Below, piece after piece: positions 9,270-61,100 of a DNA stretch of 64,000 nt. Source of the DNA: Cheilinus undulatus (taxonomy: Eukaryota; Chordata; Actinopteri; Labriformes; Labridae); contig NC_054877.1 in assembly GCF_018320785.1 (NCBI RefSeq), positions 33,378,151 through 33,442,150 on the forward strand, written 5' to 3'. The translations under genes and the position numbers were made by a program. Below the pieces are notes generated by a model. That model was not told the origin of the DNA. It made no database searches and was given only the letters and a program-made list of their open reading frames with translations. Each line of letters begins with the position of its first letter. Positions within the stretch are counted from its first letter, which is position 1.

Positions 9270-10470
9270 TTGCCTCATCAACCTGATGGCCATCATCTTG
9301 GCCTATGCCCTATCTCTCCAGGTTTCCTCCTAGCTTCCCCCTCCATGACACACACGGTAACCCTGAGCGTCTGGACTGCCCCACCATGTATTGATCACCC
9401 AGTATGCAGTGAGTTGGATCAGGCCTGCGAAAGTGCAGCTCATCAGACAGCTAACCCTTCCGATCCCCGCTCCCCTGAGCATGTCTGCTTTAGACACACG
9501 ATGTGGCGAACAATACCCAAAGATGTGGCGAAGAGCAGTTGTCACTGTGATGGATGCCACCATTTCAGGAGCCAGATTGTGAAATGTCATTCCTGCTAGA
9601 TATTCCACTGTCACCTGTTAGTGATATTATTTAGAGAGTGGAGGGTTTAGGAGAAACAGCAACTCAGCCATGAAGCAGAAGACCATGCACTACCACAAAG
9701 TGGAGTCAACAGCTATAAGCCGCATGATGCGTTAAAGACGCCCACGCTCTGCTGATTTCATAGAGTTCCTAACCTCTATTGGCATTGATGTAAGCACAAA
9801 AATACTGCATCAGGAGCCTGAGGAAATGGGTTTCAATGGCTGAGCAGCTGCACGCAAGCCTCACATCATCAAGTCCAATGCCATATTGGATGGATGGAGT
9901 GGTATAAAGTGCACTGACACTGGACTGTGGAGCAGTGGAAACGTGCTGTGGAGTGACAAATCATGCTTCTCTATCTGCCTGGCTGCATTGTGCCAACTGT
10001 GAAGTTTGGTGGAGACTGGATAATGGCATGGGGCTGTTTTTAAGGGTTTGGGCTAGACCCCTTATCTCTAGTGAACGCAATCTTAATACTTAGGCCCACT
10101 AAGACATTTTGGACAATGCCTCCAACTTTGTGGCAACAGTTTGGGGAAGGCTCTTTTCTATTTCAACATGACCGTGCCTCAGCACACAAAACAAGGACCA
10201 TGAAGGCATGGTTTGACAAGTTTGGTGTGGAAGAACTTCACTGGCCTGCACAGAGCTCTTACCTCAATCTCATCAAGCACCTTTGGGATGAACTGGAACA
10301 GAGATTGCGAGCCAGGCCTCATCCAACATCAGTGCTTGACCTCATAAATTCTCTACAGAATGAATGGGCAGAAACACTCACAAATCTTGTGGAAAGCCTT
10401 CCAAGAAGAGTGGAGGCAGTTATAGCTGCAGGGGGGGGGTCAACTGCATATCAAAGTACATATATTTGAA
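9270..10470 (+). pseudogene. Tc1-like transposase remnant
   Basis: The segment 9640-10470 follows the usual layout of a Tc1/mariner transposase gene, with many stops and deletions. The longest intact piece (10071-10469) encodes the C-terminal catalytic part: FLFQHDRASAHK includes the second acidic residue of the DDE triad (D of the QHD block), and SYLNLIKHLWDELEQRL matches the family's SPDLNPIEHLWDELER motif with the critical region altered to YLNLIK. About 150 bp carrying the first catalytic Asp region is degraded around 9970-9990. No functional transposase can be made. Terminal inverted repeats were not found, so the boundaries are approximate. Confidence 0.75.
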
Positions 10471-26869: not shown

Positions 26870-27435
26870 AATGTAAACTTGCAAAGCAGATGGATACACC
26901 CGTTTCCTTGTTTTTCACTGGCAAATCTATCTTGTAAAGCTCCCATCTGAACCGTTTGGGCCTGGTTAGAAAGTGACAGGACCAAAATCAGCGACGAGGG
27001 GCAGTACTTTCAGGCGCAGCAGAGTCGTGACATAAACAAGCCGCAGCAAGAGCTGGTGCAGTTATGGAGGAAGGGCTTAGCGTGGATGCTGCTAAAGCGC
27101 CAGTTTTATCAGATCTTGACAACATTTCTTCGTTAAAAGAAGAACAAAGAACAGCAGTGAGTTGTTTTCTTTTCAAAAATGACGAAAGTCATGTACTTGC
27201 ATGTCTGTTGTCGCCATGTTTCGCGTTATTCATCAGTAGCTGCGCACACGCAGCTTGATAGAGGCTACGTCACGTGTTTTGTTGCTCTGATTGGCCCATA
27301 GAGATGTGACAGACAGAACCTTCACCCAATCACCCTCCAAGTTTTTTTCAAAGCCTCTGCCTTTTCTTAAATGTTTCCTATTGAAGCTTTCCTGGATGGA
27401 TGTGTGAAACAAATCCATCTGGCATGTCAGGTTAC
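26870..27435 (+). repeat. Repeat-like block with helicase-like ORF fragment
   Basis: AGATGGAT near the left edge (about 26887) and ATCCATCT near the right (about 27413) are inverted. Between them an open frame (27064-27258) encodes SDLDNISSLKEEQRTAVSCF, which resembles the Q-motif region that opens RecQ-like helicase ORFs found dispersed in fish genomes. The Walker A segment expected next is absent, so only the N-terminal fragment is here. The identification is by motif resemblance alone. Confidence 0.35.
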
Positions 27436-32619: not shown

Positions 32620-34300
32620 TCTTAGTTATCCTGTATACCTCATGTAAATCTGCTCACATCCTGGCATATTTTACACTTTTGATCATGTCTAGGTTGCATT
32701 TTTGCACAGTATGCACATCTTGCAACCACACCATCAATGCACACAAACTTGTACACTAGAAAAAAAAATACCTGAAAAGAGCCTCTTCAAACTTAAATCT
32801 TAATTTTTTCAATACTTTTTCAGTCTGATTTATTTTTTCATATGTAATGTATAATTTTGTACGTTGAATGCAAAGCTAACCAGTCATATTACTTGATGTG
32901 TAAGCATCCTTGGCCATTAAAGCTAATTCTGATTTACGACAAACAGCAGCTACTTAACTTCATATTATGTGATGAAAGTGCAGTAAGAACCTGATTATTT
33001 ATTGTCTGGTTTATTGGTGAGATCCAACAAGTTTGCATTAATGTACAGCTGTGATTGCAGGACAGGAGTAACTAAGACACATTTGAAGTTTGTGTGCATG
33101 TGTGTGGCATGTTACTAAAATTCACACAGCAAACCACTGGTAGCATAGGCTACAACAGCATTTTTGCAAATCTGTGTGCATACTGATTGTTATCAAAATG
33201 TTGTCTGAATGTGCAACTTTTTTGAAATTGAAACTGAAAAACAATTCCATTTTCAGTCGATAATTTCTGTGTAACAAAAGCCCAAGAAAGTTAGGGATTA
33301 TACCAAGTGTTGTGTCAAAAAGGATTTTGCCATCATCAGCTGATGTCTTTATTTGCACACAATTTGGGTGAATATTTTCATATCTCAAAGTTTTAAGGCA
33401 TAAGTTTTATGCATATATTTTTATTATGGGAGGAAGAGCTGAGTGAACTCACAAAGAAGTGCCTAGTGGCTGTTGGCCGGGAGGCTTGAGGACCAACTCA
33501 TCTCCATCTCTATGTGTGTTACTAGGCTGACAGAAAGGCAGTTTGAGACCACATCTCCTGCCATCATACAGGAAAGCTTTAAAAGGCTGATTCAGAAAAT
33601 AATGGGTGGCATCACTTAGACTAACTCCATGTTTGTATGCTTAATAAACATCCCTGTAAGTGTTTGTTTGGTATTAGAAAACTTAGAGGCAGTTCCAGCA
33701 TTTAAAAAAGAAATCCTACTCACTTGCTGAGATGTAACAAGATGTATAATGAAAGTATAATTTCCCAAAAATTCCACTCAATTTTCACAGCAAAATTACC
33801 TTAAACACACTTAAAACTATAGACCACTATTTAAAAAAATCCATAATATACAAAATAAAACGTTTGAAAAGTAAATCATTTGAAGAAAAAAGAAAGCTGA
33901 AATTTTTCTGATGGCTCCCAGCCAAAATGCTTTAACCAACACAGCAATTTAATTACACGGTAAAGCACATTTTTAAGAGAAAGCACTTTCTGAAAACCAA
34001 GGCATGACCGAACCTCGTGGTAGGCAAATTTTCGTGGAAAAATCTTTCTAAATAGAGCAATTTTCCTTTAACAAATACGAGATAAACTGACTGACTTCTT
34101 CAATTCTTAGCGGCACCTCCGGCAGGTTTACTTCCAGCACAAGCTCTCATATTCCCCACAGTATTTATAACTTGGTCAGCTGACCTTGCACTTGGGCTCA
34201 TCCACTACACAGGGAGATAAATTCACTTTGAAGTAAACTTTCTAACTGTTAAAGTCTTTAAAATAAAGCACATTCATCTCATAAATACGTTTAATTTGGA
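32620..34300. other. Intergenic upstream of bcl6
   Basis: Contains the tail of the local repeat (to about 32745). No exon or named repeat was found in the remainder. Confidence 0.4.
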
Positions 34301-34404
34301 GTAATGGTTTAGTGTTATGAGTAAAACTGCTCAGTATTGACGGTAGTGAGTTGAAATAAAGCAGATGAGGGTGAGTAGCTCCCCCGCCCTACACATAATG
34401 GTAC

Positions 34405-34502
34405 AGCCCTGTGTTGAAATTCCGAGAATTGAGCTGCTCTGTTTCTTAGAACTGGATTCTCAGAACTGGTGATGCTCGGAGTTTCGAGGAAACTTTTACA
34501 AG
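34405..34502 (+). promoter_or_regulatory. bcl6: bcl6 non-coding exon 1 with four BCL6-type palindromes
   Basis: Four TTC-N3-GAA palindromes lie within 72 bp: TTCCGAGAA (34420-34428), TTCTTAGAA (34443-34451), TTCTCAGAA (34457-34465) and TTCGAGGAA (34483-34491). This is the core recognised by BCL6 and STAT factors. A splice donor follows (ACAAG/GTGACT, exon end 34502). The surrounding words (AAATTCCGAGAATTGAGCT, TTCTTAGAACTGG, GTGATGC) match what I recall of the non-coding first exon of human BCL6, where BCL6 protein binds and represses its own gene. The 5' edge of the exon is not defined. The first intron would run from 34503 to 37686. Confidence 0.75.
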
Positions 34503-36464
34503 GTGACTTTTTTTCCTTCCTATTTTCTCAGCATTAGGTCAGAAGTGAGGCTGAAGCAGTAAGGGCTTCCTCTGCTGCTCCTGGGATGGATTTTTATCGC
34601 TTTATTTGACAAAATTTAGTGTTTTCTTAAGCAAGAAGAGAACTTAGCGTTTGAACGGTGAAAGTTTATAGAGAGATGTGCTGTGTCTGGTTGTGTTTTT
34701 GACGGAAGTGTGACTTCAGTATGTGTGCGGATTCAATCTCAACACTTGTACTTGAAGTCGACTGAAAACAAACAGCACTGGCGGCTTAAACGTTTATCTA
34801 ATGCAGTACTCCTTGTTAGAACTCATTTAGGAAATGCTGTTTCTATTGATGTCTTTATTATTAATGTTTAAAACACTATTTTGAAAGTTTGGGAAACCAG
34901 TGAGAAGGGCAGTAGTTGCGCAACTATAGATTGGTCGGTCTGCTTCAGTCACATTTTCTTGTTTTCTTCCTTGCGCATTTCTCTTGTCGATAGTCTTTTT
35001 AGTTCACCGAGAGTCTCAAATGCAGAGCTATCTACGTTTTTGCTATCCCCTTTTCCTGCTAAAAAACATAAACGGCATATTTAGTGTACACAGTTATCCC
35101 AACACATGACATTTTAACATCATTTCTGAACTTAGACGGAGTTAAGCTGGCCTACTGGGCGAGCTACAAATAAATAACCACTCCTTAAAAATCACATCCG
35201 ACGAAATTGTATCATCTCGATTTAGTGTAATTGGTTTAGAAGTAAGTGGAGCGATTAGTTTAGCAGGATGGGAGTAAATACTAATGGGTTAAATGAGTTG
35301 AGTTCTACTTATATCGGGGAACAGGAAACCTCTCTGTGTACTGGCAACCTAATCTGAGCAGTCAGGACGGAATGTGCTCAACGTCAAACACGTTTACAAG
35401 CTGCAGGCTGCCAGCAGCGAGCTGTCTGTTACATTATGTACATCTACTATAGACAGCGCCAGCACTCACACAAACACTCTCGATTTAACTTTTTAACATC
35501 ACTGGCTGCGTTTGCATTGATATTTAGTGTTTTTTTGTAAGTTTTACAAACTTTTCAAAATTCTGAAAAAACTTAATCACAACTTATCCATGTGCTAACC
35601 CACTCCCGCAGTTTTGAATTATGACTGAAACTATTTAAATGATGTATTTTATTCTATTAAATAACACTGTGGCAAGTAAAGGCTTTGAGTTGTGAGCTCA
35701 GGAGGTCGAGAAAACATACCTTTTACTTTTCTCTTTGCAATGACGCCTCCTCCTGATGAAACTCTGGCAGGACACTTGTTCCGTTTCAAGCTTGTTTTGA
35801 TCCTGAACCCTGAGGGCAGCTGGCATGTTGCTGCTCATAGTGAGGGTGAAAGTCAGAGGTGGAGAAATGCTGTTTGTTAACCTGTTTAAAGCTCATGTGA
35901 GGGGCTTGTAGCATGGACTGAGATGAAAACTGAAGCCTCTTTAAGACCACCAGCATAGAGACTGATTCCTTAGACTATTATTCTAAAACCTGGAACCAAT
36001 GAAACAGCAAAGCACTTTGCAGAGCTAGCCTTTCCACTGCAAATATTCTTGATAAGTGACCTTTAAAATAAGCATAGGGATTTTTTCCTTAGAGGGGCTT
36101 TATTTGAGTCATTTATGGTTTGTTAAAACTTAAGTGCTTGATTTTGGCTAGATTTTGGTATTTTAAGCTGATTTCTTAAGTGTACCAGAATGCAGAAAAT
36201 CCCACCTAGTCTGCAAATCAAACTAATCTCTACTGCTACAAACCTTTTAACTAGTGAACTTCATTTTTTTCAAATGTGGTCTGCTTATGCTCATCCATGC
36301 ATATTTCATATGTTATTATCTTTCTGTCCTGTATCTTTTTGCCACTGTAGTCATATATAAATTAAATGTTGAATTTATTTAACATTTATTTAACATTTAA
36401 TCAAAATGTTTGATTAATTTTGATTTATTATGATGACAATGTAGAATCTGATTTTCATGATAAA

Positions 36465-36994
36465 TAAGGCTGTCAAAAAGCTGACATTTTTAATCACGAC
36501 TAATCCCAGAATTTCTGTACTTAATCATGATTAATTGCACTATTTTTATTGGAATTTTATCATTCTACTATTTTGCGTTTTATATTGTTTACATGTCATT
36601 TTGGAGTTTTTTTAAACTGTCTTAAACTAAGGGTGATAGACTTCCTCTTTGGATACAGACCCACTTTAAGAGGAAGATTAAAACACAGACGTAACCACAG
36701 AAAAAGGAACTTGCTATGGATTTAAAATGGCATATGTATCATTTAAAAGGCACAGATGACTTCTGGCTTGCCCACTGAGCTGTCTGAGATTTTAAAAGTG
36801 AAATGAGACATTAAGGAGCAGTGGTGGACTTATTTTACATTACTTTGGCTGCAGGGAGATGCTGTCATTGCCTTAAACAAAGTGTGTTGGAAGGTATGAT
36901 AAAACATGAGATTAATTGTGATTAAAGTTACATTGATGCAGTAATTGTGGGCTTTAAATAATCACAATAAAGCAGATTAATCTTGACAGTCCTG
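36465..36994. mobile_element. hAT-like MITE, related to the one at 55.8 kb
   Basis: The left end TAAGGCTGTCAAAAAGCTG and the right end ATCTTGACAGTCCTG are decayed versions of the inverted repeat TAGGGCTGTCAA. The subterminal TTAATCACGACTAATCCCAG and AGATTAATC words are also shared with the element at 55845-56343. There is no coding. Target duplications are no longer clear. Confidence 0.6.
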
Positions 36995-37363
36995 GTAATA
37001 AATGTTATTTTTTTGATGGTATTATAAGGTTAAGGTTAGGGTTACATAAAGCTCTTATGAATTTGTAAGTGTAATTGTTATTCAAAGACCAATACATATT
37101 TTGAAATGTAAACTTAATATTATTCCCAGTAATATATTTACACTTTGTGCTGGCTTCAAATAAAAACGGGTAGTCTTCTAGTGCGCATGTGCTGCATTCA
37201 CCGCCCAGTGAAAGTGCAGATTTGGATCGGTAACATAGATTAGACGTCAGTCCAATATAAAAATAATGTTAATATTGAACCTGATACCAATATTGGATTG
37301 GATCTGGCCCATCTCTATTGATTAATCCTGAGGGGAAAAATGCAATTAAAAAAATGTATGAGG

Positions 37364-37450
37364 GGGCACAGATGACCTAGTGGTTAGGGCGCCCCCCCAT
37401 GTGCCCAGGTTCAAATCAGGCTTTTGGTTCCTCCTCCACATTAGCACCAT
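37364..37450 (+). mobile_element. SINE head fragment
   Basis: An A-box-like GACCTAGTGGTTAGGGCGC and a B box GGTTCAAATC are spaced as in the SINE at 25831. The body is truncated shortly after the head. It lies in bcl6 intron 1, about 250 bp upstream of the first coding exon. Confidence 0.65.
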
Positions 37451-37697
37451 CCTAGATTGACCAGTGAGTGGAAAATCTGCCCTTGGCTTCAAAAGCTAGT
37501 AGCAAATTTAGGTGCCATTCAGAAGCATGTCGTTTCTGATTGTTTTGCAGTCTTTCTCAAACCATCAACATTTGCGATTAATTGCAATTAATTCTTTCCA
37601 AAGCCTATGACTAATGTGATACATTTTTATTTTACTGACAGCGCCATTATAAAACAACTTTTGTTACTATTTCCGCCCTTGCCCAGATTTCGACAGC

Positions 37698-41383
<3,686 letters not shown>

Positions 41384-54400: not shown

Positions 54401-57068
54401 AATTTTGCCTTCTTTGATGTAGTTTGCAATGAGCTGTCCGAACTCAGACCCTTCCCTGGCTCGCTCCGCCCTCAGCAAGTCCCCAGCTGACAGATGGGTG
54501 TAGTTGTAGTTCTGAGAGACAGAAACATTTAGATTTTATGTGAAAAGGTGATCTTTTGGGATAGAAATTTTCTGTGACAGTCAGACACTTTTACCAGTTT
54601 GCAGATTCCTTCTCAAGCTGTAAATCTACATTTTAAAACAGCCCTTAAAGGTTGAGGACATTTCATTCATAGTCCAGGGAAAGGTCAGTCTTTATGCTCT
54701 GAATGAAAGGAGCCTCTATGCATAGCTGTCATTCAAGCTAAACCAGCATGTGAGGCAACGCAGCCAACACCCCGTAACATCCGTGAGCAGATGAAGTTTT
54801 AAAGTCTTTCTTAAAGAAGCTCTTTCTCAGACAAACTTACACTTCAAAGAATCCACAGGGGCGCCCAGCGGAGCTGCAGCTTCATGAGCTTTCATGAATC
54901 TGACTTTCAGAAAAACTTCAAAGCAGAATCCTCAAGAAGACTTCTTGCTTTTCAAACTTTTTGGGTGGCTTATTAGAGATAAGGTCTTTCCAAATCCATA
55001 CCGATTCTCCAACCGGTATATGACTTAAGTGTGAGAAAAGGATTGTTACAATTAGGGATGTCCCAATCAGCACTTTTGACTTCTGATACGATTTTTTAAT
55101 ATTGAATATCTACCCAGTCCGACACTCGTATTTACCAAGATTAAAGTTTCAATGTTTTTGTTGACAAAAATAACTTCAGTAAACAGATTAACTACTAGAT
55201 GTGCTTATTCCACGTAACTTAGTGCAGGTGGCATTGCTGCAAAACACTTATAATCAAATTTCTACTCAGAATAGTGCAACAGCTTTGTTTTACTTTAATA
55301 TTTAATCCAAAAATAAAGCTACTAAGCGCAGAATATGAATTTAAAACTGAACTCAACAATACACACATTTTTAAAGCTAACTTCTTTGCACCAGCCTCAC
55401 TTTGATGTCCATCATTTTGTAGACATATTTTCATTTTTCAAGGTAGAAAAGATTTAAGATGTGTTACTAAAGAGAATAACTGAATATTCAATGATGTAAA
55501 TTTGCAATACTTTTTCTACATCATGTTTTAAAACATTACAAATTCTGTTTTACTTTAATGATGGACTGTTTCAAGAAGTACTGGCATTTTTAAAAACTAC
55601 ATCTTATACAGCAGGTACTTCAGAGAGGAATGAATCCATTGGGTATTGCAGGCAAACACTGTCAGAATTGCACAAAACTTTTTCCATAACGAAACATTGA
55701 CAAACTATATAATAAGATTGCCTGCAGTTTTTTGACGTGGATACAAGAAATTCTCTAATAGAGCGTGCTGAAGACTCCTAGTCAGCATTGACCAATTTGT
55801 GCTAGTATCATAGCTAGGTTTAATGCTAATGGTATTGTTAAAACTAGGGCTGTCAAGATTCTTTGTGTTGTGAAGATTAATTAATGTCCACAATACGGGC
55901 ACTATATTATTTTAATCACGATTAATCCCTTGCTTTATTGGGCCATTTAGCACACTTTGTTCAGCCATGACATTGCCTCCCTGAAACAACAGAGATGCAA
56001 AATAAGACAATCACTGCCCCTTATTGTCCCATTTTACTTTAAAAAAAAACTTGCACACCTCAGTGGACAAGTCAACAGTCATCTGGACTTCATATTTCCT
56101 TTACAATCCATACTTTTTCTGTAGTTGAGCTCATGTTAAAATCTTAGATCAACCTGTAAAAGTAGGTCTGTATCCAAACATTAAGTCAATTACTCTACAT
56201 CCAAAGTGACACAAAAGCAGTTTTGGTTCCAAAAAGTATCATTGTTTTTAAGAAGGGGGCATAATGGATGCAATTAATCACGATTAACTACAGAAATCCT
56301 GAGATTAATAGCGATTTAAAGTTTTAATCTTTTGACAGCCCTAGTTATAACCCTTACACAGTCACTGTTTGCCGACTGTTGAATGGACAAGTGCACTCCA
56401 GAATTACAATTGCATAACCTCACCTTTAGATAAGCCAATGATAAGGTTACAAAGTAGAGTAAATGGCAATAGTGTATCTCCTGTTAGCTTTGTTTGCTCC
56501 ATGTAAAGATAATTAGCAGGCGTTCATTTATTGTATGCATGCAGGCGTTTGACTGAATAACATTCATCACAGGGCTAAAATATATAGAATAAAGGACATA
56601 AATGTCAGAAACAGCTACTGACGAGATTCTAAACAATGTAGAATATGTGAAGCATGCCTCTCAACTCCTTAATGCCACAGTGTCTATTCATGTTAGCATA
56701 TAAACTGAATATCCTGTGCGGCTAATTAGCTAGCTAGCTGACCGGCTAACCCACACAGGTTCATTTTAGAGGACAACCAGAAGTCATTATCATCAAAGCA
56801 TTAGCTTAAAGCGAAGTCCTGCTGATAAAAGAGGGGTTATGAACAAAAACTTAACACAATTTCCATCACTACAGGCTACATCCTCATACAATGACAGTAC
56901 TTCTTATTGTCCTTCCTCTCGTACCTCCACAATCTTGGAGCACTGGGTCCCTTTGCCGGCGCCGGGCCCGCCCAGCACGAACACAACCTGCGGCTTCATG
57001 ATCGCGGATACCCGGTACAACAAGCTCGGCACCCTTTGTGACACGTAACCGAACAAACCGCCGATCAT
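48495..57068 (-). CDS. cmpk1: UMP-CMP kinase (cytidine/uridine monophosphate kinase 1)
   Basis: Transfers phosphate from ATP to CMP, UMP and dCMP in pyrimidine nucleotide synthesis; mainly cytosolic and nuclear. Six exons on the minus strand, all GT-AG and in frame: 57068-56925, 54511-54365, 52900-52748, 52627-52551, 51414-51318 and 48536-48495 (660 nt, 219 aa). Exon 1 carries the P-loop [10 protein letters not shown]. Exon 2 has [10 protein letters not shown] and the NMP-binding segment. Exon 3 has [17 protein letters not shown], and exon 4 has the lid [18 protein letters not shown]. The C-terminus is SILDKEG. An internal Met (56999) opens [11 protein letters not shown] and gives 196 residues, the length of the main human isoform; it has A at -3. 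The upstream Met adds [20 protein letters not shown] plus three residues, resembling a weak mitochondrial-type leader, and the frame stays open further upstream. Adenylate kinases share the fold, but the motifs fit CMPK1. Confidence 0.95.
48832..49078. mobile_element. Foldback insertion with 68-bp arms and 15-bp target duplication
   Basis: ATTTATTAAAGGGGG flanks the segment on both sides (48817-48831 and 49079-49093). Within it, 48849-48916 is nearly the exact reverse complement of 48926-48993, leaving a 9-nt loop. The arm contains AACTTGCAAAAAAGGTTGTA and TAGACCTTCATCAGGC. The 15-bp duplication points to LINE-type retroposition rather than DNA transposition, and the arm sequence resembles the tails of some fish retroposons. 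Confidence 0.75.
50050..51171. mobile_element. Putative non-autonomous DNA element nested in the Tc1 copy
   Basis: Tc1 sequence breaks off after CCTTTTCCAGACT (about 50047) and resumes near 51172. The intervening block starts with GGTCCAGTTCAGTTTGGTAC followed by GGCACGGTACGC, and ends with GTACCAAACCATACCTTTTA then CAGTGGAAACACGG. The inner GTTTGGTAC / GTACCAAAC words face each other, as do the TTTCCAC / GTGGAAA words. No transposase is present and target duplications are unclear. Confidence 0.5.
51726..52215 (+). repeat. Unnamed dispersed repeat, copy 2 (cmpk1 intron)
   Basis: Same orientation and block order as 11939-12380, with about 70 bp extra near the right end (between GATTGGCTGTGGG and CTGCATGAACTAA). 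The two copies are about 40 kb apart. It lies between the fourth and fifth cmpk1 coding exons. Confidence 0.65.
52901..54364 (-). other. cmpk1: cmpk1 intron 2, with LINE-end-like repeat fragment
   Basis: The segment at 53578-53660 (AATAATAATAATAATATCTT, then ATATAGCGCCTTTCAAGAAA and CCCAAGGACGCTTTACAGG) is typical of the terminal region of fish L2-type LINEs. The overlapping open frames at 53617-54052 on both strands have no known domain. The rest is unremarkable. Confidence 0.5.
54512..56924 (-). other. cmpk1: cmpk1 intron 1
   Basis: Non-coding. It contains a hAT-like MITE (55845-56343) and, at about 55045-55090, TTAGGGATGTCCCAATCAGC, the start of another common fish repeat whose other end I did not find. 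Nothing else was recognised. Confidence 0.5.
55845..56343. mobile_element. hAT-like MITE with 8-bp duplication
   Basis: The ends TAGGGCTGTCAAGATT and CTTTTGACAGCCCTA are inverted repeats. The flanking octamers GTTAAAAC (55837-55844) and GTTATAAC (56344-56351) differ at one base, a good hAT target duplication. Subterminal ATTAATC / GATTAAT words are repeated. The element is 499 bp with no coding and has a decayed relative at 36465. Confidence 0.8.
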
Positions 57069-57069
57069 A

Positions 57070-57420
57070 AACCAGCAGCTATAGGAGTGGACCTGCGGGG
57101 TGTGGACAAATATAATAAGTCGGGCTGAATGCGTGTCAGTACCAGAGTAGGAAGTCGATGAGTCAAACGACACCACTTCCGCTGTTGACTTCACTGACCA
57201 ATGGCGTTCCACGTAGGAGCGACGCAGTCCGTGTAGCCACACCTCGTTGCACTTGTTATTTTTTTCAATGCAGAGGTCGGGTGACGCCCCTCCCCTGCCT
57301 CTCCAGCATCAGCACCTCCAAACCGAACGAGAAGATCCCGCGGCGTGGAGAGGATGCTCCCCGGTCCGTGATGCTCAACAGCGCGAGGACGCTGTACGGT
57401 GAGAACTGAGAGGCGCTCGA
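57070..57420. promoter_or_regulatory. Head-to-head cmpk1 / fam78a promoter region
   Basis: GC-rich, CpG-rich sequence between two divergently transcribed genes. It contains a CCAAT box (57198-57202, in GACCAATGGCG) and ETS-like CTTCC words on both strands (for example CCACTTCCGC at 57173). No TATA box is evident. The CpG-rich stretch continues to about 57950. Transcription start sites cannot be fixed from sequence, so shared promoter function is an inference from arrangement. Confidence 0.5.
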
Positions 57421-58184
57421 GTGGCTCGGTTTAGTCTCTGTTTTCGGCACGTTTATGCTGCCTCGCTGCCTCCATTCATGATGCACCATTCATGCATCCC
57501 TAAGAATGGAAGCACACAGCGAGGAAAACATTATAATAGCCTGCATTAGCCCTGCTGGCTGGCCTTTATTTGACACATTGGCGCTCATTTGATGTAGCTT
57601 CTTTTCATGTAGGTCAAGGTGATGAAGAGCCCGATTTATTCTTTTTAGGGCACCGCGCGAATGTAGGGCTAATACAGGAAAAAGCCAAGCAAACAAAGGC
57701 ATCCAGCACCCCCTCCTCTGACGCACCTGGCTGCCCTGTCGCTGCTTGACATGACAGCGCAGAGCCAGGCGCAGAGCATCAGCAGGATCAAGGGGCACCG
57801 ACGTGCAGCCGGACGTGTGGACTCGACGAGGAGCAGAGGAGCCTCCGGACGCACGGCGGAGGAGCAGCAGCAGCAGCCCAGGGGAGGCCGGATTGCAGTT
57901 TCTGGGGACGAGCGCCAAGGGCAGTGCGGCAGTCAGCAGGCAGACCGGGGGGAGGAGGCACCAGAGATCTGTGATACTTCCCCCCCAGGCCCCACTTTCT
58001 CTCTCTCACCTCCATACCATCCTGAAAATATGCTTGTGGATGTTCTTATGTTTCATCAATGGTGACTGGGACACTCCCCATCTTTTTTATCCTCCTCTGT
58101 TTTCCACCCAAACCAATCATTGATGATGGGCAATTAAAGGAATAGATCTGCTCTTCCAGCAAGGGTGGAATCAGGAGGGGACTG
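57421..58184 (+). other. fam78a: fam78a 5' region / probable 5' UTR
   Basis: CpG-rich up to about 57950, then mixed sequence to the fam78a start. A possible acceptor lies at CTGCTCTTCCAG (ending 58159), so the exon carrying the start may begin at 58160 with a non-coding exon upstream. Open frames such as 57751-58065 and 57490-57918 are composition artefacts of GC-rich DNA. Confidence 0.4.
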
Positions 58185-61100
58185 ATGTGCATACTGGCCA
58201 GGAAACATTTGCTCCCTCCTCTGGTTTTGCTTATTTTGCTCGCCGCCTGCACTATGGGCTGTATTCAGAGCATCGCATGCAAGCCCCGCATCAGACGGGA
58301 GAACATAGTGGTGTATGAGGTGTCAGCCTCCATTGACCAGTGTCCCACCATCATCGAGGAGAACTCACCGATTGTGCTCCGCTACAAGACGCCTTACTTC
58401 AGGGCCTCAGCGGGGGTTGTGATGCCACCCGTGCCCCGCAACGAGACCTGGGTGGTGGGCTGGATCCAGGCTTGCACTCAGATGGAGTTCTACAACACAT
58501 ATGGGGATATTGGAATGTAAGTAAACAGTAGTACCATGATATATGAACTTCCAGTCTCCAAATGAGCTCAGCTTGTGTTGTGTGTTCTACTTCTGCAAAG
58601 TACTAACAAACATCTAGACGCTGCAAATAAGAACAGCCTGTCCCCCTCTGACTCTGTCCTCTTCACCCTTCATCTGCAGGTCCAGCTGGGAGCTACCAGA
58701 GCTTCGAGAGGGTAGGGTCAAGGCTATCAGCGACTCAGACGGCGTCAGCTATCCCTGGTATGGCAACACCACAGAGACAGTCACCCTGACTGGGCCCACA
58801 TCCAAACCGTCCCGTCTGACAGTCAGCATGAACGACAACTTCTACCCCAGTGTGACCTGGGCAGTGCCCATCAGCAACAGCAACACACCCATGCTCACCC
58901 ACATCACCCGGGACCAGAGCTTCATCACCTGGCTGGTGGCGATGAACTCCGTCACAAAGGTGAGGACAAAAACACAAATAGAAGGGGGTCTTACACTGAA
59001 AAGTAAACAGTTTTTGAATCCATATCTTAAAAATAGTCTGTGTTTTGTATTCACTGTTTATCTAGTTAAACTGCTGGCTTTACATCTAGAAACACACACA
59101 CTGCACACAGACTGACTGTGATGTAATCATCTCCCCCCTGCTCTTTTCCTTCCTGGTGTAAAGTTACAAAGTACCTCATCATTGCCTTCTGCAGGGAAAA
59201 AAATCTGCAATGTCCATGAGGAGATAGACCAGCTCAAAATCAGCATCAGCATGTCTGTGTTCTTTACACTTTCTTGGCAAATGGCTGTTTTTCTCAAAGT
59301 TTCTGCCTTTTAAAAGGCTAATGTCAACTATTTCTTACTCATCGGTGAATAAAATGTAAGCAACAATAAGGCTGTTCAAAATTCTAATACTCTAAAACGT
59401 TTGGATTCCACATCTTAACCTGTTAGCGTCTCCATTATTGCTGTGAATGTTTACTCAGCAATCACTATATGTTCTACTTTTCTTCTGCCCACCTCAAACC
59501 CTTAAAACTCATTCATACATTCACTTAAAAAGTCAATTCAACCTTTGAAATAGTCCCAACACATTAAGCTATTTAAGTATGATGCAGCTTTTTGTACCAT
59601 TCTTTTTTTGAACTTTCAAAGTCAACTCGCTTTCTCAGCCCTTCAAGGTATCTGACACTTATTTCAATGGCATGGATTTCTGCTACCAAAAGCACATACT
59701 GCACTTGACATACATAATAGAGAAAATAAAAAAGGCATCAAGATGTAGGTAATCTTGTGCTGCTTGTGTTAAAACAGCTGTCAAAGCAAAATCATCTAAA
59801 CATGTTTCTGGTTGACGGTCAACTGTCACAGAAAAATCACCAAGTCGCTCATTTACTCCAATGTTAAATGTTAGCAGACACCAGAAGAGAGGACTTTTTA
59901 TATTGCTGCCCTGGCCATAATTCTGGCTCAATTTAAAATAAATTTTTATGACTGCTTCATCAAAGTCTTGTGATACTCATGGGGTGATCTCTTTTATGAT
60001 AATTGTTAAAGGCATGGCATATAAACATAAGTTTGAGAGGAAGTCTTCACTTGAAATCTCAATGAAATCAGCTGAGCTGCCTAACTGTTACAGCAGCTAC
60101 CATCAGTACCTGATGGACGTGAGACATTAGGTACTCAATTTTAAATGTGCATGAAAAGTTTTGTTACAAATTCATCACAGACTGACATTCATCAATATTC
60201 AACAACAGCATTAGCAGAATTCTATAACATATTCAATGTCTTTCATATATACAGTGCCTATAAAAAAGTATTCACCCCCTTGGATGTTTTACCTTTTCAT
60301 TGATTTTAGAAATCAGTCATGGTCAATATAAAATGAAAACACATTTCTACAAAGTAATGACAATTAAACAAAAATATGTAAAGTAAAATAAGTGACTTCT
60401 TGAATATTCAACCCTTTCAAGTCAGTATAGTATTATGCACCTGCTGCAATCACAGCGCTGAGTCTGTGTGGATAGGTCTCAATCAGGCTTGCATATCAGA
60501 CACTGCAATTTTACTCCATTGTATTTCAAAACTACTCAAGCTCTGTCATGATGCGCAGGATTGGGCATGAGGATTAATTTTTTCAAGTCCAGCCACAAAT
60601 TCTCTATTGGATTGAGGTCTGGGCTTTGACGCGGCCACTCCAGAACATTCACGTTGTTGTGTCTTAACAATTTCTTTGTAGCTTTTTCTGTATGCTTCAG
60701 GTCATTTTCCTGTTGAAAAATAAATATTCTCCCAAGCCACAGTTCTCTTGCAGACTGAAAAAGGTTTTGCTTCAGGATTATTCTATATTTTGCAACATTA
60801 GTTTTACCCTCTATCTTTACAAGCCTTCCAGGGCCAGCTACTGAGAAGCATTCCCACAGCATGATGCTGCCACCACTGTGCTTCACAGTGGGGATGGTGT
60901 GTTTGTGGTGATGTGCAGCGTTTGGTGTCTATCAAACAGCGTCTGGTCTGATGGCCAACAAGCACCATTTTGGCATCATTTGACCAAAGGACTTTCTTCC
61001 ATTGACCATGTCACGCAAATGCCTTTTGGTGAACTGTAGTCCAGATTAAATCTGAGTTTTCTTTAACAGTGTCTTTCTCTTTGCCACTCTCCCATAAAGT

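Follow-up and report, generated by a model that had tools for sequence, protein, structure and literature searches.

Four TTCN3GAA sites before a bcl6ab-type gene of Cheilinus undulatus and their probable kinship with mammalian BCL6 exon 1

Closely spaced TTCN3GAA sites occur in a general class of control sequence, the GAS clusters of STAT5 target genes, and the sites described here likewise lie several together. The closest described system is the exon-1 element of mammalian BCL6, through whose sites both BCL6 and STAT5 repress the gene and where mutations in lymphoma disrupt the sites (PMC11507070, in its available text, and other cited papers). According to the accessible part of PMC3759668, the BCL6 regulatory region, with its untranslated first exon, has four previously known STAT sites (alpha to delta); in human, a fifth one, epsilon, lies upstream of exon 1. 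A ChIP amplicon for BCL6 autoregulation lies in exon 1 and is called the autoregulation binding site in excerpts of PMC7288929; its forward primer falls on the site numbered 3 below. For fish, the available text of a 2024 review already reports that the zebrafish bcl6 promoter has tandem tetrameric STAT5 sites that are almost identical (PMC11507070), and zebrafish and torafugu carry a trio of genes, bcl6aa, bcl6ab and bcl6b (PMC9650189, as excerpted). In the literature searched we found no description of the element being retained at bcl6ab or of changed site centers there, including that of a BCL6-type site 4.

The window, by which we mean the whole 64-kb stretch of C. undulatus DNA analyzed here, contains such an element. 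It resembles the mammalian one in its place before the first coding exon, in its row of TTCN3GAA sites, in the sequence around sites 2 and 3 and in having a putative donor soon after the last site. It differs by two center bases, one in site 3 and one in site 4, and nothing past site 4 matches, as judged from printed mammalian pieces that hold neither site 1 nor the full spacing. A second gene of the same genome, on a contig designated C7 and of bcl6aa type, has the same element in its putative exon 1 (78% identity over 130 bp, all half-sites identical to the window). In the C7 copy, sites 3 and 4 read exactly as printed for mammals and one additional base lies between sites 2 and 3; of the two genes, that of the window is more diverged. 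We regard the element as a known control element that survived gene duplication and as no new kind of element.

The cluster and the gene it precedes

An earlier sequence-only reading of the window had reported four TTC-N3-GAA palindromes within 72 bp, and all four are present as written, together spanning exactly 72 bp (34420-34491). Their position is also as proposed, with a donor-like site between 34502 and 34503 just 3' of the cluster and the bcl6 ATG (37698) about 3.2 kb downstream. The features of the locus are as follows, with the printed mammalian site names equated presumptively.

34399-34527, + strand: candidate conserved non-coding block, at best guess exon 1 and the first intron bases; 77.7% identity over 130 bp to C7:40423092-40423221
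34420-34428, + strand: site 1, TTCCGAGAA; identical in C7; presumably alpha
34443-34451, + strand: site 2, TTCTTAGAA; same letters in C7 and a human BCL6 primer (PMC7762542, excerpted); presumably beta
34457-34465, + strand: site 3, TTCTCAGAA; TTCTTAGAA in C7, human and mouse; presumably gamma
34472-34502 and 37687-37697, + strand: frame of an exon-1 ATG that runs across the proposed splice into the bcl6 frame, 14 extra codons; in frame in the window and in C7
34483-34491, + strand: site 4, TTCGAGGAA; TTCTAGGAA in C7 and mouse; presumably delta
34503-34508, + strand: proposed splice donor GTGACT; GTGATT at the same place in C7
37687-37858, + strand: first coding exon, first part of the BTB domain; acceptor TTGCCCAG followed by ATTTCGACAGCATGGCC, ATG at 37698; 77% identity to C7 by tblastn
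38082-38303, + strand: second coding exon, rest of the BTB domain
38422-39232 (end approximate), + strand: third coding exon, middle region; open frame, partly aligning with C7
40447-41337, + strand: zinc-finger exons; outer limits of the blastn matches to C7, introns included

The proposed exon 1 would end at 34502 (ACAAG/GTGACT) and its C7 counterpart in CTACCAG/GTGATT. Both signals of a leader exon are present in the window, namely the putative donor at 34503 and a putative acceptor whose first exonic base is 37687. The reverse complement of a mouse Bcl6 promoter primer (PMC4667269, available in part) starts with CAGGTGATT, which may be compared with the donor; taken over all 22 bases, this tile does not exceed shuffle level at either locus. 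Between 34527 and 37711, no non-coding low-copy match was seen on the bcl6 diagonal of window versus C7, and the two genes therefore appear to share no intermediate exon. Printed zebrafish bcl6 letters, taken from an excerpt and reverse-complemented by eye, end in TGGGCTCT, similar to the start of the second coding exon of the window (TGGCTTC). On these letters, the zebrafish ATG exon would be preceded by one exon, matching the arrangement proposed for the window.

The genome (1.17 Gb in 46 contigs) has three BCL6-type loci, on contigs C7, C13 (the window) and C22. A search with a pair of zinc fingers recovered them at 100, 96 and 94%, with the next best place at 68% (among the 150 of 4957 candidates that were scored), and a BTB search agrees on the same three. 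Over the 123 BTB residues, the window protein is identical to human BCL6 at 83 and to C7 at 92, and C7 matches human BCL6 at 97. In the compared stretch of zinc fingers, 108 of 113 residues are identical between the window and C7. Among solved structures, the best relatives of the BTB domain were those of human BCL6; the finger stretch had multi-finger proteins on top (ZNF568 best) and the BCL6 finger structure 2lce lower. The name bcl6 given in the sequence-only reading is thus confirmed at the level of the BCL6 family by the BTB identity to the human protein, but needs refinement in that the window holds the more diverged copy, of bcl6ab type, and C7 is nearer to human BCL6. The window gene has a BCL6-type BTB domain and zinc fingers, as expected of a teleost bcl6ab, and is distinct from the bcl6aa and bcl6b of the same genome. 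Because the three loci and their BTB identities fit the published trio, the window gene is probably of bcl6ab type, the C7 gene of bcl6aa type and the C22 gene bcl6b-like, names that are assigned by resemblance to the available text of PMC9650189 rather than from a tree.

Transposase-like pieces in the window at 10044-10469 (+ strand) and 60536-60928 (- strand) match Pfam DDE_3, the first slightly below the curated cut-off. A 561-bp stretch (26874-27434) has an 80% identical match in the vicinity of the C7 bcl6 gene, off the gene diagonal, and is probably an interspersed repeat. An open frame at 56904-57308 (- strand) has an adenylate-kinase-type P-loop start, with Pfam matches to ADK and AAA_17 below the curated cut-offs; another, at 58146-58520 (+ strand), matched no Pfam family. 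The former may be exon 1 of a UMP-CMP kinase gene, and we assume that the latter resembles FAM78 proteins. Searched against 210 kb around the C7 gene, these two neighbors gave nothing convincing (best E values of 0.57 and 0.58), and a broad tblastx of the window against the C7 region returned 1614 rows swamped by repeats. Neighbors common to both bcl6 loci, which would be evidence of an origin in the teleost genome duplication, were not shown by these weak tests, which comprised a strict LIM pattern only (no match), a tblastx display from which row-rich stretches were dropped, hiding even bcl6, and two neighbors. The accessible text of PMC9650189 describes bcl6ab as being without synteny to bcl6aa.

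A second copy and the pattern of conservation

Four sites might have come together by chance or have arrived with a fragment of a repeat, and 14 further TTCN3GAA sites are indeed scattered across the window. The window as a whole is not motif-rich (18 sites observed versus 24.3 expected from 100 shuffles) and the clustering is therefore local. Against an accidental origin, 400 simulated 64-kb sequences with the first-order base transitions of the window (25.6 Mb) yielded no quadruple and three triples with starts within 72 bp. In 292 kb of real DNA from the same genome (64 kb of the window, 210 kb of C7 and 18 kb of C22, with 87 sites), the only clusters of at least three sites with starts within 80 bp are the window element and the copy before the C7 bcl6 gene. 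A genome search with 34370-34520, by a method that passes over simple repeats and highly frequent words, recovered the query itself and C7:40423106-40423221 (E 7.8e-18), with nothing else at E<=10; the single related copy thus lies in the same place before a second bcl6 gene. On the simulation, the count in real DNA and the genome search, we reject chance or a repeat as the origin of the cluster and would give such an origin almost no credence. Rfam, at gathering scores, had no match in 33000-38000.

The stretch in the window is homologous to the one before the C7 gene, which ends approximately 2.1 kb upstream of the C7 bcl6 ATG. When the window was compared to 210 kb of C7, 7 of the 29 low-copy rows among the 150 blastn matches listed fell on the bcl6 diagonal (six coding ones and the element) and 22 fell off it. 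Among the matches listed, no other non-coding low-copy stretch is collinear in the two genes, and the identity of the element (77.7% over 130 bp) falls between those of the BTB exons (81% and 76% at the DNA level). Measured from start to start, the sites are spaced 23/14/26 in the window versus 23/15/26 in C7, so the proposal that site number and order are preserved holds between these copies, as does almost all of the spacing. No copy of the element was found in 18 kb around the bcl6b-like gene of C22, 12.5 kb of which precede the first BTB match; there were four scattered single sites and one blastn match at E<0.001, which aligns bases of the C7 stretch that belong to none of its sites.

Within the element, the half-sites are more conserved than their surroundings. 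In a global alignment of the window with C7, 24 of 24 half-site bases are identical, as compared to 10 of 12 center bases and 27 of 36 linker bases; the flanks retain 25 of 40 bases on the 5' side and 29 of 52 on the intron side (54 of 92 together). The half-sites differ from the rest of the 72 bp (37/48) with p = 0.012 and the element from its flanks with p = 0.0003 (Fisher tests), in an alignment that flatters the flanks. The suggestion that the center bases are free to vary was too strong given their near identity in the two copies. The changes in the window, one base in site 3 and one in site 4, arose on the bcl6ab side because the mammalian primers, as printed in the excerpted papers, agree with C7 at both.

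A different reason for such conservation would be an encoded peptide, with a start codon in exon 1 giving BCL6 an N-terminal extension of 14 residues. If exon 1 joins the ATG exon directly, the frame from the ATG at 34472 is free of stops into the bcl6 frame in both copies, which have M, VSRK, L and D in common. But only 7 of the 14 residues are identical and 2 of the 9 changed codons are silent, so we see no sign of selection on a peptide. Moreover, conservation peaks on the palindromes, and this ATG comes after three of the four; the context of the usual start codon (37698) looks the stronger of the two. We therefore judge a peptide-coding reason unlikely, indeed very much so.

Relation to mammalian BCL6 exon 1

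The mammalian comparison used primer-length pieces printed in papers available in part, which were placed without gaps and measured against 100 shuffles per tile and locus (best shuffle 14-17). Ungapped placements were used; gapped alignment had put the human site-2 and mouse site-4 primers on site 3. The human site-3 primer TGGGGTTCTTAGAAGTGGTGA (PMC7288929) matches C7 at 21 of 21 bases and the window at 16 of 21, equal to its best shuffle of 16, and the mouse site-3 primer GGGTTCTTAGAAGTGGTGATGC (PMC4667269) matches C7 at 22/22 and the window at 19/22, both above shuffles. Also above shuffles in both copies is the human site-2 primer GAGCTCTGTTGATTCTTAGAACTGG (PMC7762542), with 21/25 in C7 and 20/25 in the window. 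For the mouse site-4 tile AGTTTCTAGGAAAGGCCGGA (PMC8770984), C7 reaches 15/20 (best shuffle 14) and the window 12/20 (best shuffle 15). Shuffles are thus beaten by four of four tiles in C7 and by two of four in the window. The perfect matches of C7 (21 and 22 overlapping bases) take in sequence outside the motif. Three more tiles (the mouse exon 1-2 junction, the mouse reverse promoter primer and a human reverse primer) did not rise above shuffle level at either locus. Site 1 found no counterpart in the printed mammalian sequence, and epsilon has no obvious counterpart in the fish, the nearest upstream TTCN3GAA being 389 bp (window) or 304 bp (C7) before site 1.

Because all four primer tiles match it above shuffles, the C7 stretch from site 2 into site 4 is clearly homologous to the mammalian one. 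For the window copy, homology with the mammalian stretch is direct at sites 2 and 3 and elsewhere runs through C7. Since two of the BCL6 primers, one human and one mouse, agree with the C7 copy at every base, homology of the element to mammalian BCL6 exon 1 is very probable. The proposal that this exon is kept in fish is therefore supported in part, by way of the C7 primer matches, with the qualification that the C7 element is closer to mammals than that of the window. Alignment with tetrapod exon 1 beyond the motifs, on which the proposal had been made to depend, is found through C7 and in part directly (20/25 and 19/22), with two direct comparisons (16/21 and 12/20) failing to show it.

STAT and BCL6 input to the duplicated genes

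We consider it likely, and strongly so, that this is the exon-1 regulatory element of BCL6, that it predates the divergence of fish from mammals and that it was kept in two duplicates, where it most likely works as in mammals. The four TTCN3GAA sites, in a transcribed leader near the promoter, would be bound by activated STATs (STAT5 and STAT6). BCL6 itself would also bind them, and their occupancy would lower the transcription of bcl6. By analogy with mammals, we infer that the element is transcribed, bound and repressive in fish.

The two inputs may not have fared equally in the window. The BCL6 core is printed as TTCCTAGAA in the available text of PMC11507070, and site 4 of C7, TTCTAGGAA, is its reverse complement, as it is in the mouse primer. 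The core is absent on either strand from the four sites of the window, where site 4 reads TTCGAGGAA. What both copies keep without exception is the STAT-type TTC...GAA. STAT input thus seems better supported than BCL6 input for the window gene, because each of its half-sites is intact, whereas one center base has changed in site 3 and one in site 4. This raises the alternative that the window element is a STAT (GAS) response cluster only, with BCL6 autorepression lost or weakened in bcl6ab. Consistent with this, none of the half-site bases and two of the 12 center bases differ, the changes lying on the bcl6ab side, and site 4 departs from the BCL6 core; furthermore, TTCTCAGAA is among the sequences given for STAT5A/B ChIP-seq at other genes of human T cells (PMC3907443, as excerpted). 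Yet two base changes are few, site 3 differs from the printed core in C7 and mammals too, and the zinc fingers that would bind the sites are nearly unchanged between the duplicates (108/113 versus C7). On balance, we hold a STAT-only cluster to be rather unlikely. A more specific version, in which the duplicates split the ancestral switch, is less likely again and offered tentatively: bcl6aa would keep STAT and BCL6 control, and bcl6ab would keep the STAT half-sites, have lost its best BCL6 site and escape autorepression. If this split did occur, bcl6ab would escape through a naturally arisen change in the very exon whose mutations occur in human lymphoma.

The preferred reading, an ancient exon-1 element kept in both duplicates, gives a leader exon that is readable between fish and mammals and that survives in duplicate beside BTB exons 76-81% identical, which suggests that the element is likely bound and needed. 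The window and C7 copies also form a natural experiment, one four-site switch with two differing centers, that could separate repression by STATs from autorepression by BCL6.
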